Positions 22,244 to 28,576 of a stretch of 64,000 nt of DNA are shown in pieces; position 1 is the stretch's first letter, and every line of letters starts with the position of its first letter. The translations under genes were made by a program, and so were the position numbers. This DNA is from Ectothiorhodospiraceae bacterium (GTDB lineage Bacteria > Pseudomonadota > Gammaproteobacteria > XJ16 > Halofilaceae). Location: the NCBI GenBank assembly GCA_007134775.1, contig SLKC01000042.1, positions 29,451-93,450 on the forward strand. Reading direction: 5' to 3'. The notes under the pieces were generated by a model. The model searched no databases. It worked only from the letters and a program-made list of their open reading frames with translations, and had not been told where the DNA came from.

Positions 22244-24928
22244 ATGAGTCTCGTGATCTGGCTGATCATCATTTTCGCCGCGCTCGTCGCCGTGGCGCGT
22301 CTGCGGGCCTCCTTTCTCACCTGGACCGGCGGGGGCGCGGTTGCACTGGTGCTGCTCGGCTGGGTGGGCCTGCTCGCCTTCTGGCCCGGCGTCGTGCTCT
22401 GGGCCCTGTTCCTGCTGATCGCGGTGCCGCTGAATGTCCCCGCGTTGCGCCAGCGCCTGCTCTCCGAACCTTTGCGCCGTTACATCGGGCGGGCGCTGCC
22501 GCCGATGTCCGAGACCGAGCGCGAGGCCATCCAGGCAGGGACCGTCTGGTGGGAGAGTGAGCTGTTTCGCGGCAACCCTGACTGGGACCGGCTGCTGACC
22601 TATCCCAGCCCGCGGCTCGGTGAGCGCGAGCGCGAGTTCCTGGAGGGGCCTGTCGAAGAACTCTGCCGGATGCTGGAGAACTGGGACGTGACCCACCGGC
22701 GCAACGATCTGCCCGCCGAGGCCTGGGATTACATCAAGCGCAATCGTTTCTTCGGCATGATTATCCCGGAAAAGTATGGCGGGCTCGGTTTTTCCGCCTA
22801 CGGGCATTCACAGGTCGTGATGAAGATTTCGAGCCGCGCGCCAACGGCCGGTGTGACGGTGATGGTGCCGAACTCTCTTGGCCCGGCGGAGCTGCTGCTT
22901 GAATATGGCACGGAAACCCAGAAGGACTATTACCTGCCGCGACTGGCCGATGGCCGTGAGGTGCCCTGTTTCGGGCTCACCAGCCCCTTCGCCGGCTCGG
23001 ACGCGGGGGCGATCACCGATTGTGGTGTCGTCTGCTACGGTGAGCATAACGGCGAGCGCGTCCTCGGCCTGCGCACGACTTGGGAGAAGCGCTACATCAC
23101 CCTGGCGCCCGTCGCCACGGTGCTGGGGCTTGCCTTCCGGGCCTATGATCCGGAGGGTCTGCTCGGTGGCGACGAGGATCTCGGTATCACCTGTGCACTG
23201 GTCCCCACTGACACCCCGGGGGTCGGGATCGGTCGCCGCCACGACCCGCTCGGGACCGCGTTCCAGAACGGCCCCACGGAAGGCAAGGATGTCTTCATCC
23301 CCCTGGACTGGATCATCGGCGGTCAGGGAGGAGTCGGTCGTGGCTGGACCATGCTGATGGAGTGCCTGTCCGTCGGTCGCGGGGTGTCGCTTCCGGCCCT
23401 GGGTGCGGGCACCGGCAAGTTCACCACCCGCGTCACCGGGGCGTATGCCCGTGTCCGCCGCCAGTTCCGCACGCCCATTGGGCGCTTCGAGGGGATCGAG
23501 GAGCCGCTCGCGCGCATTGGCGCCAAGAGCTACTCGATGGACGCCGCGCGGATGCTCACGCTCGCGGCGCTCGATGCCGGCGAAAAGCCCTCGGTCGTCT
23601 CGGCGATGCTCAAGCACTACAACACCGAGGGCACGCGCGAGGTCATCAACGATGCCATGGATGTCCATGGCGGCCGGGCCATCTGCGACGGACCGGCCAA
23701 CTACCTGGCGACGCCCTACCGGGCGATCCCCGTGGCCATTACCGTCGAGGGGGCGAACATCCTCACGCGCAGCATGATCGTCTTCGGGCAGGGCGCGATG
23801 CGCTGTCATCCGTATCTGCTGCAGGAGATCGAGGCGGCGCAGGAGCGCGATGAGGAGGTCGCGGGCGATGCGTTCGACAAGGCCCTGTTCGCGCACCTCG
23901 GCTACACCACGCGCAATGCCGTTCGGGCCCTGGTGTACGGCCTTACGCGTTCCGTGGTCGCGCCCGCGCCGGCGACGGGCCAGGCGGCGAAGTACTATCG
24001 ACGGCTGGGCCGGATGTCGGCTGCGTTCGCCTTCCTCGCCGATATCACGCTGCTCGTGCTCGGGGGAGAACTCAAGCGCAAGGAGAAGCTTTCCGGGCGA
24101 TTCGCCGACGCGATGATCCACATGTACGCCTGCTCGGCCGCCCTGCGCCGGTTCGAGCAACAGGGGCGCAAGCCAGAGGACGTCCCGGTGATGGAGTGGG
24201 CCGTCAAGCACAATCTCTACCAGGTGCAACAGGCCCTTGACGAAATCCTGCGCAATTTCCCGATCAAGCCGCTCGGCATTGCGATGCGGTGGTTGGTGAT
24301 CTTCCCCCTCGGGCGGCGGTTCCGCTATCCCAATGACCGCGTGGGCCACAAGGTAGCCCGGTTGCTGCTGGAGCCCTCCGCCGCACGCGACCGGCTGACC
24401 GAGGGTATCCATATCGATGATCGCCCCGACGATCTGACCGGCTGCCTCGAGCACGCGCTGCAAATGGCGGTACGCGTTGAGCCCGTCATGGCGCGGCTGC
24501 GCAAGGCCGGGCATGAGCAGCATCCGATGACTGCCTGGCCCGACTGGATCGAGTCGTTGCGGGCCGACGGGATCCTGACCGACGAGGAAGCGGAGCTGAT
24601 GCAGGCCTGGCGTCCTGCAGTGCGTCGCGTGATCGATGTCGACGACTTCGATCCCGGGGAGATCATCCAGCCGGTTCCGCAGGAGTCGGCGGGCGGTCGA
24701 CCCACCGGGGACGAAAGCGGCGGGGCGAGGAAGAAGGCGGCGGCGAAGAAGACCGGCGCCAAGAAGACCGCTGCGCGCAACAATGCGAGTACGAAGAAAC
24801 GGGGTGTCAAAAAGAAGGCCGCGGTTGCTCAGTCGACCACGGAGGCGGCCGGTGGTAGCGCAACGCCGAGTAGCGATTCGGCGCCCGATGACACCAGGCA
24901 AGCGGACGGAAAACAGGGGAACGAATGA
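22244..24928 (+). CDS. fadE: Acyl-CoA dehydrogenase FadE with a lysine/alanine-rich C-terminal tail
   Basis: 894 residues from ATG 22244 (GGAG six to nine bases upstream). First step of beta-oxidation: FAD-dependent formation of trans-2-enoyl-CoA. N-terminal hydrophobic segments (residues 1-65) anchor it to the inner membrane, as in E. coli FadE (about 815 residues). The core carries MIIPEKYGGLGFSA, FGLTSPFAGSDAGA and VHGGRAICDGP. Residues from about 826 form an unusual tail of KKAAAKK, AKKTAAR and KKRGVKKKAA segments like bacterial histone H1-type proteins, ending acidic. The stop overlaps the next start (ATGA). Confidence 0.95.
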   Translation: MSLVIWLIIIFAALVAVARLRASFLTWTGGGAVALVLLGWVGLLAFWPGVVLWALFLLIAVPLNVPALRQRLLSEPLRRYIGRALPPMSETEREAIQAGTVWWESELFRGNPDWDRLLTYPSPRLGEREREFLEGPVEELCRMLENWDVTHRRNDLPAEAWDYIKRNRFFGMIIPEKYGGLGFSAYGHSQVVMKISSRAPTAGVTVMVPNSLGPAELLLEYGTETQKDYYLPRLADGREVPCFGLTSPFAGSDAGAITDCGVVCYGEHNGERVLGLRTTWEKRYITLAPVATVLGLAFRAYDPEGLLGGDEDLGITCALVPTDTPGVGIGRRHDPLGTAFQNGPTEGKDVFIPLDWIIGGQGGVGRGWTMLMECLSVGRGVSLPALGAGTGKFTTRVTGAYARVRRQFRTPIGRFEGIEEPLARIGAKSYSMDAARMLTLAALDAGEKPSVVSAMLKHYNTEGTREVINDAMDVHGGRAICDGPANYLATPYRAIPVAITVEGANILTRSMIVFGQGAMRCHPYLLQEIEAAQERDEEVAGDAFDKALFAHLGYTTRNAVRALVYGLTRSVVAPAPATGQAAKYYRRLGRMSAAFAFLADITLLVLGGELKRKEKLSGRFADAMIHMYACSAALRRFEQQGRKPEDVPVMEWAVKHNLYQVQQALDEILRNFPIKPLGIAMRWLVIFPLGRRFRYPNDRVGHKVARLLLEPSAARDRLTEGIHIDDRPDDLTGCLEHALQMAVRVEPVMARLRKAGHEQHPMTAWPDWIESLRADGILTDEEAELMQAWRPAVRRVIDVDDFDPGEIIQPVPQESAGGRPTGDESGGARKKAAAKKTGAKKTAARNNASTKKRGVKKKAAVAQSTTEAAGGSATPSSDSAPDDTRQADGKQGNE

Positions 24929-27300
24929 TCGATCCGGGTACAAGCATCCAGCGCGCAGCCGTTCTCGGCGCGGGCGTCATGGGTGCGCAGATTGCGGCCC
25001 ATCTGGGCAACGCGGGTATTCCCGTTGACCTGTTCGAGCTGCCAGCCGAAGGGGCCGACTCGCGGGCGCCCGCGCGTGACGCCATTGACCGCTTGCACAA
25101 GTTGCGGCCGGGACCGTTGGCGCGTCCCGATGTGACGCGTGCGATCCAGCCTGCGACCTACGATCTCGATCTCGATCGGTTGGCGGCGTGCGACCTGGTC
25201 GTCGAGGCCGTCGCCGAGCGCATGGACGTTAAGCAGGCGCTGTACCGCCAGATCGCTCCCGCTCTGGGCGCGGCAACACTGTTCGTCTCCAACACCTCGG
25301 GGCTGCCCGTCGGGCGGTTGGCGGAGGCGTTGCCGCGGACGCTGCGCTCGCGGTTTTGTGGCGTCCACTTCTTTAATCCGCCACGCTACATGCACCTCGT
25401 CGAGCTGATTGCCCATCCGCAGACGGACGGCAACGCGCTGCATCGGCTCGAAGGCTTTCTCACGACGACCCTGGGCAAGGGCGTGCTCCATGCCCGCGAT
25501 ACCCCCGGGTTCATCGGCAACCGGATTGGTGTGTTCGCGCTCTGCGCCGTGATGCGTCACGCCGAGCGCCTCGATCTGCCCTTCGATCTGGTCGATGCAC
25601 TGACCGGGCCGGGCATCGCCCGCCCCAAGTCTGCGACCTTCCGCACCGCCGACGTCGTCGGGCTCGATACCTTCAGCCACGTCGTCACGCATCTGCATGA
25701 CACCCTGACCGATGATCCCTGGCGCGACTGCTTCCGCATCCCGGATTGGCTCCAGGGGCTTCTCGATACCGGCAATCTCGGCCAGAAGACAGGGAGCGGT
25801 GTCTATCGCAAGGGCAAGGGCGGCATCGAGGTGCTCGATCCCGCGAGCGGCGACTACCGTCCTGCGGAAGATCGGGTCAGTGACGGGGTGCGAGCGGCGC
25901 TGGCCAAGTCCGACTTGTCGGCGAAATACGACGCCCTGGCGGAACTCGATGACCCACAGGCGGAATTGATACGGGCGAGTCAGCGCGATCTGTTCCACTA
26001 CTGCGCCTACCACCTTGCCCAGATCGCGCCCAGTGCGCGCGAGCTCGATCTCGCCCTGCGCTGGGGCTTCGCTTGGGAGCGGGGGGCATTCGAGACGTGG
26101 CAGCTTCTGGGCTGGGCGCCGACGGCAGAGCGCCTTGAGCGCGCGATCGAGGCGGGGGAAACCCTGGCCTCCGCCCCACTGCCCGAGTGGGTTCGGGAGC
26201 GGTGGCGTGAGGGCGTGCATGGCCCACGCGGTTCCTGGGCCCCCGATGTGGGCAGCTGGCTGCCGCGTTCGAGCCATCCCGTGTACCAGCGTCAGCGTTT
26301 TCCTGCGCGCCTCGTCGGAGAGCCCGAGCCACGCACACCGACGCTGTGGCAAAACGATGGGGTCCGGTTGTGGGATGCCGGCGACGATATCGCAGTACTG
26401 GGGTTCCGGACACCGATGCATGCCGTCAACGACGCCGTGCTTGAGGGGATCCTGCGCGCCATCGAGGTCGCCGAGCGCGAGTGCCGTGCGCTGGTGGTCT
26501 GGCAGGCCAACGCGCCCTTCTGTGTGGGGGCCGATCTGAAGGCGGTTCGGCGTGCGCGCGATGGCGGCAACTATGCCGCGATCGAATCGCTGGTGGGTGG
26601 CTTCCAGGAGGCCACGATGGCGCTGCGCCATTGCCGTATCCCGACCGTGGGTGCGCCCACAGGGCTCGCCCTGGGCGGCGGGCTGGAGATCCTACTCCAC
26701 TGCGACATCCGGGTCGCGGCGATGGAGACCTATTGCGGCCTGGTGGAGGCCGGCGTCGGTCTGATTCCAGCCGGCGGTGGCTGTGCCAACCTGGCCCGAC
26801 GGGCGGTCGAGTGGTCGCCGGACGGTGACCCTTGGCCCTGGATCCAGCACTACTTCGAAGAGATCGCCTATGCGCGGGTCGCCGGCAGCGCCAGTGACGC
26901 GCGCGCCCGCTTCTGGCTGCAGGGCGGGGATCGGGTCGTGATGAATGCCGACGAGGTGCTGCACGCCGCGCGCAGTGCGGGCCTTGCCCTGGCAGAGACC
27001 GGCTACCGGTCGCGCATGCGCAACCAGCCGGTGCGGGTCGCGGGGGCGCCGGGCATTGCCACGCTGGAGGGCAAGTTGGTGAACCTGCATGCCGGCGGCT
27101 TTATCTCCGACCACGACTACACCATCGGCCGCTGCCTCGCAGAAGCCCTCTGCGGTGGTCGCGTCGAGGCGGGTAGTGAGGTCGATGACGAATGGCTGCT
27201 GCGGCTCGAGCGGGAGGGATTCATGGCGCTGGCCCGCACCGAGGAGACGGGCGCGCGTATCGCCCACATGCTCGAGACCGGCAAGCCGCTCAGAAACTGA
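24925..27300 (+). CDS. Bifunctional 3-hydroxyacyl-CoA dehydrogenase / enoyl-CoA hydratase
   Basis: 791 residues. The domain order is dehydrogenase first (NAD motif LGAGVMGAQIAAHLGNAG, residues 12-30; catalytic region CGVHFFNPPRYMHLVEL), then the dehydrogenase C-domain to about 450. An enoyl-CoA hydratase/isomerase domain (APFCVGADLK oxyanion hole, GLALGGGLEILLHCDIRVA) occupies about 475-640. This is the reverse of E. coli FadB and matches the FadN type. It carries out the hydration and second oxidation of beta-oxidation. Four-base overlap with fadE implies coupled translation. Confidence 0.95.
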   Translation: MIDPGTSIQRAAVLGAGVMGAQIAAHLGNAGIPVDLFELPAEGADSRAPARDAIDRLHKLRPGPLARPDVTRAIQPATYDLDLDRLAACDLVVEAVAERMDVKQALYRQIAPALGAATLFVSNTSGLPVGRLAEALPRTLRSRFCGVHFFNPPRYMHLVELIAHPQTDGNALHRLEGFLTTTLGKGVLHARDTPGFIGNRIGVFALCAVMRHAERLDLPFDLVDALTGPGIARPKSATFRTADVVGLDTFSHVVTHLHDTLTDDPWRDCFRIPDWLQGLLDTGNLGQKTGSGVYRKGKGGIEVLDPASGDYRPAEDRVSDGVRAALAKSDLSAKYDALAELDDPQAELIRASQRDLFHYCAYHLAQIAPSARELDLALRWGFAWERGAFETWQLLGWAPTAERLERAIEAGETLASAPLPEWVRERWREGVHGPRGSWAPDVGSWLPRSSHPVYQRQRFPARLVGEPEPRTPTLWQNDGVRLWDAGDDIAVLGFRTPMHAVNDAVLEGILRAIEVAERECRALVVWQANAPFCVGADLKAVRRARDGGNYAAIESLVGGFQEATMALRHCRIPTVGAPTGLALGGGLEILLHCDIRVAAMETYCGLVEAGVGLIPAGGGCANLARRAVEWSPDGDPWPWIQHYFEEIAYARVAGSASDARARFWLQGGDRVVMNADEVLHAARSAGLALAETGYRSRMRNQPVRVAGAPGIATLEGKLVNLHAGGFISDHDYTIGRCLAEALCGGRVEAGSEVDDEWLLRLEREGFMALARTEETGARIAHMLETGKPLRN

Positions 27301-27376: not shown

Positions 27377-28576
27377 ATGGCCATTGATGATCGCGAAGCC
27401 TATGTCGTCGCCGCTCGCCGCAGTCCGGTGGGTAAGGCGCCGCGCGGGGTGTTCCGTCATACCCGCCCCGACGACCTACTCGCGCATGTGATCCAGGCGG
27501 TGCTTGCCGACCAGCCGGATCTCGATCCGGCGCAGGTGGAGGATGTCATCGTCGGCTGCGCCATGCCCGAGGGTGAGCAGGGCATGAACGTCGCGCGCAT
27601 CGCCGCGCTGCTCGCGGGACTGCCGGACGCGGTGCCGGGCGTGACGATCAACCGCTTCTGCGCGTCGGGCCTGGAGACGGTAGCGCGTGCCGCCGATCAG
27701 ATCCGCCTCGGTGAGGCCGATGTCCTGATCGCCGGCGGCACGGAGAGCATGAGCCTGATCCCCTTCATGGGCAGCCGACCCGCATTCAATCCGCGCATCT
27801 TTGACGACGCCGATGTCGCCATTGCCTATGGCATGGGGATGACTGCCGAGCGCGTCGCCGAGCGGTGGCAGGTCAGCCGCGAGGATCAGGATGCCTTTGC
27901 CCTCGAGAGCCATCGACGCGCGCTTGGCGCGCAGGAGGCCGGCCATTTCGCCGACGAGATCGCGCCCTTTGACGTGGTCGAGCAGCGCCCCGATTTGGAG
28001 GCGGGGCAGGTCGTTGCGTCGCGCCGCCGGGTGGACGCCGACGAGGGCCCGCGGGCGGATACCTCGGCGGAACGTCTGGCGAAGCTGCGACCCGTGTTCG
28101 CCGCCCGCGGCAGCGTGACACCCGGTAACAGCTCGCAGATGAGCGATGGGGCCGGGGCGGTACTTCTTGCAAGTGGAGCGGCGGTCAAGCGCTACAATCT
28201 GCAACCACTGCTGCGCTTTGCCGGGTATGCCGTGGCGGGGGTGGCGCCCGAGATCATGGGCATCGGCCCGGTGGCGGCCGTACCGCGTGCCCTGCAACGC
28301 ACTGGCCTGGCAGCCGAGGATGTCGATTGGGTCGAACTCAATGAGGCGTTCGCGGCGCAGAGCCTTGCCGTCATGCGTGACCTGGGGCTCGACGCGCAAC
28401 GCGTCAATCCACTTGGTGGCGCGATCGCGTTGGGCCATCCGCTGGGGGCGACAGGTGCCATCCGTACCGCAACCCTCGCGCATGGTCTGCGGCGCACGCG
28501 AGGACGCTGGGGCATGGTGACGATGTGTGTGGGGACCGGCATGGGAGCGGCCGGCCTGTTTGAGCGCACGGACTGA
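27377..28576 (+). CDS. Acetyl-CoA C-acyltransferase (thiolase)
   Basis: 399 residues. Final thiolytic step of beta-oxidation. The acyl-carrying cysteine is Cys95 in NRFCASGLE; the other catalytic elements are NEAFAAQSLAV, GHPLGATGAIRT and CVGTGMGAAG with the second Cys. It lies 76 bases after the bifunctional enzyme, so the pair acts like FadA with FadB. The start ATG at 27377 follows a modest ribosome site. Confidence 0.95.
   Translation: MAIDDREAYVVAARRSPVGKAPRGVFRHTRPDDLLAHVIQAVLADQPDLDPAQVEDVIVGCAMPEGEQGMNVARIAALLAGLPDAVPGVTINRFCASGLETVARAADQIRLGEADVLIAGGTESMSLIPFMGSRPAFNPRIFDDADVAIAYGMGMTAERVAERWQVSREDQDAFALESHRRALGAQEAGHFADEIAPFDVVEQRPDLEAGQVVASRRRVDADEGPRADTSAERLAKLRPVFAARGSVTPGNSSQMSDGAGAVLLASGAAVKRYNLQPLLRFAGYAVAGVAPEIMGIGPVAAVPRALQRTGLAAEDVDWVELNEAFAAQSLAVMRDLGLDAQRVNPLGGAIALGHPLGATGAIRTATLAHGLRRTRGRWGMVTMCVGTGMGAAGLFERTD

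Follow-up and report, generated by a model that had tools for sequence, protein, structure and literature searches.

A recurrent lysine-rich C-terminal tail, of a known type, on the acyl-CoA dehydrogenase FadE

Lysine-rich low-complexity regions are enriched in DNA- and RNA-binding proteins, and low-complexity regions in general are described as under-represented among metabolic proteins (PMC6821194). The lysine-rich tails of the Pseudomonas proteins AlgP and PhaF have been linked to granule organisation and to DNA binding (PMC9239181). For FadE, a review states that very little has been established about its localisation, even in E. coli (PMC9329746). Disordered lysine-rich tails are thus known on proteins that handle DNA or RNA and on organisers of granules, whereas FadE is a metabolic enzyme. 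The FadE tail described here is real, conserved within its lineage and recurrent; the kind of tail is known, and the enzyme that bears it is unexpected. A literature search for a lysine-rich tail on FadE found none.

In the window, by which we mean the whole 64 kb stretch of DNA analysed, fadE occupies positions 22244..24928 of the forward strand. The reading frame runs from an ATG at 22244 to a TGA stop at 24926-24928 without an internal stop and encodes 894 residues. It is open upstream as far as 21866, and an upstream start was rejected because homologues begin at the equivalent of 22244. Pfam returned three acyl-CoA dehydrogenase domains (N, M and 1) and ACDH_C (5e-105), all four over cut-off. 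The NCBIfam models NF007000 (1115 bits, cut-off 600) and NF009586 (1093, cut-off 608) also matched, and the narrower model NF038187 FadE_coli scored 1060.6, below its cut-off of 1300. Judged by its sequence, the product is a complete FadE acyl-CoA dehydrogenase. The ATG of the next gene overlaps the fadE stop (ATGA); by Pfam this gene encodes a 3-hydroxyacyl-CoA dehydrogenase/enoyl-CoA hydratase (HAD/ECH; 24925..27300, +). An acetyl-CoA C-acyltransferase (thiolase; 27377..28576, +; NF006553, 690 bits) is next in this beta-oxidation cluster.

The acyl-CoA dehydrogenase domains and ACDH_C span residues 140-802 (22661..24649, +). ACDH_C ends at residue 802, the FadE subfamily models end at 805-809, with NF007000 and NF009586 at 805-807, and alignments of homologues to the core stop at about 802-815. 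Residues 1-805 were taken as the core, which leaves a C-terminal extension of 89 residues. The original prediction was of a lysine/alanine tail beyond the normal FadE core, and the tail blocks do follow the point at 802-809 where the core models end. The extension begins with a Gly/Ser/Glu linker (residues 806-829; 24659..24730, +), placed by homologue alignments and model confidence. A Lys/Ala-rich block follows (residues 830-864; 24731..24835, +; KKAAAKKTGAKKTAARNNASTKKRGVKKKAAVAQS) with 11 K, 2 R and no D or E, for a net charge of +13 in 35 residues. The motifs quoted in the prediction (KKAAAKK, AKKTAAR and KKRGVKKKAA) are all present in the translation. The acidic end that it placed after these blocks is there as well and is mildly acidic: residues 865-894 (24836..24925, +), rich in Ser, Thr and Gly, carry 6 D/E against 2 K/R.

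AlphaFold2, run on a 42-sequence alignment, modelled the protein with a mean pLDDT of 83.7. The core was confident, with VLCAD and ACAD9 as its nearest solved folds by structure and by sequence. Residues 810-894 fell below 50, and in this model the tail is predicted to be disordered from residue 810. The most cationic stretch of 40 residues reaches +8 in the core and +14 in the tail; when the whole protein was shuffled 2000 times, this value averaged 8.0, with a maximum of 14. At the DNA level, a KK(A/T/S)xxKK pattern has exactly 2 sites in the 64 kb window, both in the fadE tail, where shuffles expect 0.03; one further site with 1 mismatch lies elsewhere in the window. A Pfam search of FadE at E<=0.001 gave no match to an H1-like profile (e.g. 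PF07382, Hc1/Hc2 family). The translation holds no KPAA repeats and the Pfam search found no phasin domain, which places FadE outside the PhaF/AlgP type.

The family and order of the window genome are represented among the searchable genomes by its own genus only, with three species. A Lys/Ala tail was found on FadE in 3/3 of these, differing in sequence and in repeat number. A sequencing or frameshift artefact was rejected: tails are in frame in two further species, and in G001 the tail (ATAKKKATAKKKAASKKKAGSKKKAASKKKAAARQ) stops immediately upstream of the same following gene. Tail length and repeat number are not the same in G001 and G002, although only 5% of core residues differ between them. 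The 18-bp repeat units number about five in G001 and fewer in G002. It had also been suggested that slippage-prone repeats could change the length of the tail. Repeat number does vary between species, while the DNA repeat in the window genome itself is weak (TRF, 1.9 copies).

Outside this genus, a class-wide survey showed that FadE mostly ends about 5-30 residues past the core. The main exception was genus g220 (family f155), in which 23/23 scorable C-termini were cationic; in its sister genera g155 and g273 the tail was present in 0/7 FadEs, the ends being short and nearly uncharged. Smaller occurrences were seen in f58 (2/4 FadEs, the other two having lost or never gained the tail), in f87/g186 (one) and in f111/g247 (one, L225, rich in Arg and Lys). 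When each of 169 distinct FadE ends was scored by the net charge of its most cationic 30 residues, the distribution was bimodal, at +7 to +16 in the tailed genera and at no more than +6 in every other genus (140 ends); L225 was dropped by the filter of this count and comes from the class-wide survey. The tail is thus neither absent nor random in all close relatives, the outcome named beforehand as counting against it: it is present throughout the genus and convergent elsewhere. FadE tails of other kinds also exist, among them one of at least 135 residues rich in D/E/S/T, and hence acidic (L165, G323), and Pro/Glu-rich tails of ~78 residues (L038/L230).

On a tree of 92 FadE proteins, the window's genus (SH-aLRT 100) paired with the tail-less family f94 (support 94). 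Genus g220 (SH-aLRT 100) was separate from it, inside f155 with tail-less sisters. The simplest account is that the tail was gained at least twice, and more often when f58, f87 and f111 are included. The tail label on this tree was loose and also marked short dibasic ends (L013, L023, L060), so the printed count of seven tail changes is not usable; shape and supports are unaffected. Among the 79 families scored, 4 were tail-positive. Because the tail-less form is the norm, in the other 75, FadE as such does not need the tail in order to function.

The way in which the tail evolves was assessed from amino-acid and synonymous differences in seven independent close pairs. Their ratio was 404:1391 (0.29) in the core and 83:41 (2.0) in the tail; tail residues are therefore replaced almost without constraint, with frequent indels. 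Charge behaved differently from residues. In g220, where four-fold sites are near saturation (median p 0.62), 21/22 tails stayed at +7 or more, against 38% in a neutral simulation at 0.5 changes per site; this comparison is indicative and is not a p-value, because the simulation ignores shared ancestry and treats tails as independent. These results fit a disordered region that is held for its bulk charge while its residues drift almost freely, and they provide a bacterial example of a disordered tail that keeps its overall charge as its residues change. A pairing of the tail with an acidic core was also checked. Tailed cores of g220 were mostly at -2 to -20, compared with -4 to +5 in the tail-less sister genera, and core charge in the window's genus was no different from that in tail-less f94.

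Other carriers of the lysine module were counted with a genome-wide KK-xxx-KK codon pattern, which may miss other Lys-rich tails because it sees this spacing only. In the window genome the pattern marked five carrier genes, and the reversed control pattern had zero matches. The carriers are fadE, topA (L135), rpsB, encoding S2 (L136), and two small H1-like coiled-coil proteins (L137, L138); TopA had a sub-threshold HC2 match only. The proposed resemblance of the FadE tail to H1-like DNA-binding tails in composition is genuine, and the same genome places the module on TopA, on S2 and on the two H1-like proteins. In the two other species of the genus the carriers are much the same (S2, TopA, an H1-like protein); one of these species, G001, also has the motif once inside a methyltransferase-like protein (L141). 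Carriers in g220 and other relatives include S2, TopA, L30, an HHH protein, Ku, H1-like proteins, phasin-like proteins and PhaE, names given outside a Pfam search being readings of the sequence. In this company FadE is the outlier, a predicted membrane catabolic enzyme among polyanion binders. A genome-wide spillover of Lys/Ala repeats was not supported. Six tail-less relatives (G017, G095, G128, G398, G404 and G406) bear the pattern on other genes and not on FadE; FadE is therefore not simply following a genome-wide habit.

Side observations were made on several Lys-rich proteins. The small H1-like proteins L137, L138, L142 and L146 have a central coiled coil between KKKAAS repeats, and Pfam gave no confident match for any of the four. 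L077, in G128 (whose FadE has no tail), is a phosphofructokinase-like enzyme with an N-terminal K/A repeat (MAKKAAKKTVKKKTTRKTTAKKAEV) and so another metabolic carrier. L294, in G059 (whose FadE is tailed), resembles a multi-haem cytochrome, with CxxCH motifs and a Lys-rich tail end (KKNAKIIKKTSSK).

Our preferred reading, to which we give an even chance, is that the tail is a disordered polycationic tether to a polyanionic surface. The original prediction, that the tail might tether FadE to anionic phospholipid, nucleoid, polyphosphate or a partner, is supported in part. FadE would sit at the inner membrane through its N-terminal hydrophobic region (residues 1-64; 22244..22435, +). Kyte-Doolittle windows of 19 residues reach 2.61 and 2.48 there, and AlphaFold2 places helices at 2-19, 24-40 and 46-64. 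This region is strongly hydrophobic in FadEs with and without the tail alike; membrane anchoring is therefore predicted, and the idea that the tail substitutes for a lost anchor was rejected. The job of the tail would be charge and not sequence: flexible KKAxx-type repeats could make many weak electrostatic contacts between a cytoplasmic enzyme and a polyanionic surface, and these contacts may fix the position or orientation of FadE. We infer the membrane topology, the polyanion binding, the identity of the target and any benefit to fatty-acid oxidation. Anionic phospholipid next to the anchor is the leading candidate for the partner in vivo because of its proximity, though well short of probable. 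Nucleic acid (nucleoid DNA, rRNA or nascent mRNA) follows closely and would be the likeliest by analogy, because of the other carriers of the module. Polyphosphate is a distant third.

The strongest competitor narrows the surface to nucleic acid: the tail would act as it does on TopA, S2 and the H1-like proteins, and FadE would bridge the membrane and the nucleoid or ribosomes. We regard this as possible, if unlikely. Of the other module carriers found in the window genome, TopA and S2 belong to families that bind nucleic acid and the rest have an H1-like composition. The lysine repeats of Streptomyces TopA stabilise the complex of enzyme and DNA, according to Strzalka 2017 as cited in PMC6821194, and the KPAA repeats of AlgP bind DNA (PMC9239181). 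However, FadE is a membrane oxidoreductase with no known need for DNA or RNA and has no nucleic-acid-binding domain, and the function of a module on other proteins need not transfer. Broader still, and distinctly speculative, is the idea that in several gammaproteobacterial lineages a membrane-anchored FadE repeatedly acquired a nucleoid- or ribosome-binding tail that links beta-oxidation to nucleic acid (or polyphosphate). If it were true, fatty-acid use would be coupled to nucleoid position or to translation.

Slightly less likely in our view is a tolerated low-complexity appendage, in which Lys/Ala codon repeats arose by slippage or copying at a permissive terminus and have no function. The nearly free turnover of tail residues and the variation in length between close species agree with it, as does the tolerance of the FadE C-terminus for the unrelated long tails of other lineages (L038/L230, L165). 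Stretches of the fadE tail are also 70-90% identical to repeats of topA, rpsB and the H1-like genes. Low complexity would produce such nucleotide matches too and makes them uninformative, and direct copying from those repeats was set aside. Against a functionless appendage are the charge kept at near-saturated synonymous divergence, the Lys codons retained in a GC-rich gene (fadE's own GC3 is 0.83), the bimodal, genus-wide and repeatedly gained character of the trait, and the sister genera, which are rich in K/A modules elsewhere and have none on FadE. Near-neutral turnover and indels are also expected of a non-functional appendage; the one counter-argument is that charge persists, and the species are not independent.

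A tail that responds to polyphosphate is an unlikely third. Here the lysine stretch would capture polyphosphate in starvation, at a time when fatty acids are being consumed, and either take FadE to granules or change its activity. Ppk1 is present in 3/3 species of the window's genus, and Lys-rich stretches bind polyphosphate in P. aeruginosa EngA and SrmB, with 9 Lys per 20 residues (PMC12077175), and in E. coli YihI and Rnr (PMC12345225). The tails reach 11 Lys per 20 residues in G001 and 10 in G002, compared with at most 3 in the FadE core. However, the window FadE has 7, in the range of the P. aeruginosa negatives (5 and 7 Lys; PMC12077175), and the Ppk1 search gave no match in the tailed genomes G266 and G361, with one PPK2-like ORF at L079. 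The N-terminus of this PPK2-like polyphosphate kinase (L079, in G361) is short and contains Lys, and a Lys-rich coiled-coil ORF of 95 residues lies nearby.

Two further explanations are weaker. Docking or channelling appears improbable; the partner of the tail would then be an acidic surface on the HAD/ECH enzyme encoded downstream, or the tail would attract polyanionic acyl-CoA. The translational coupling of fadE to the HAD/ECH gene speaks for it, but in g220 fadE is followed by an acyl-CoA ligase-like ORF instead, and its sister genera without the tail share this ligase; no partner gene therefore tracks the tail. Least probable of all, and disfavoured in the window's genus, is a PhaF/PhaM-like tether to PHA granules that couples beta-oxidation to PHA metabolism: PhaF uses such a tail (PMC9239181), and in g220 a K/A tail is carried both by a phasin-like protein (L284) and, at the C-terminus, by the PHA synthase subunit PhaE (L078 in G266, KKAAVKKAVARKAKVTRAKAGA; L087 in G361), the PhaE tail in the same genomes as tailed FadE, but the window genome and its two genus mates gave no PhaE or PhaC match, the PhaC profile being insensitive (no match over cut-off in any of 12 genomes, PhaE-positive ones included).

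As a putative polycationic tether, the tail can be set beside several known systems. VLCAD and ACAD9 are inner-membrane-associated enzymes of fatty-acid oxidation; they are mitochondrial and match the FadE core only, not the Lys-rich tail. With gammaproteobacterial FadE of the E. coli type (PRK09463/PRK13026), the window FadE has in common the whole core, the domain order and the N-terminal hydrophobic region. E. coli FadE has 814 residues (PMC9329746), to which the window FadE adds about 80 Lys-rich residues, predicted to be disordered. A Lys-dense terminal stretch is also found in EngA and SrmB, targets of lysine polyphosphate modification, although the window FadE tail is less Lys-dense than those positives. 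In the case of TopA, C-terminal repeats of the KKAAAKK type are shared with the enzyme of the same genome (L135); unlike TopA, FadE is a predicted membrane enzyme with no nucleic-acid substrate, and its tail is shorter and has an acidic end. The H1-like domains of Pseudomonas AlgP and PhaF resemble the FadE tail in their Lys/Ala-rich disordered repeats and H1-like composition, and for PhaF a role in connecting a metabolic granule with the nucleoid has been proposed. AlgP carries KPAA repeats, about 150 residues long, on a helical domain, whereas the repeats of FadE are of the KKAxx type, have no proline in residues 830-864 and are borne by a catalytic enzyme.
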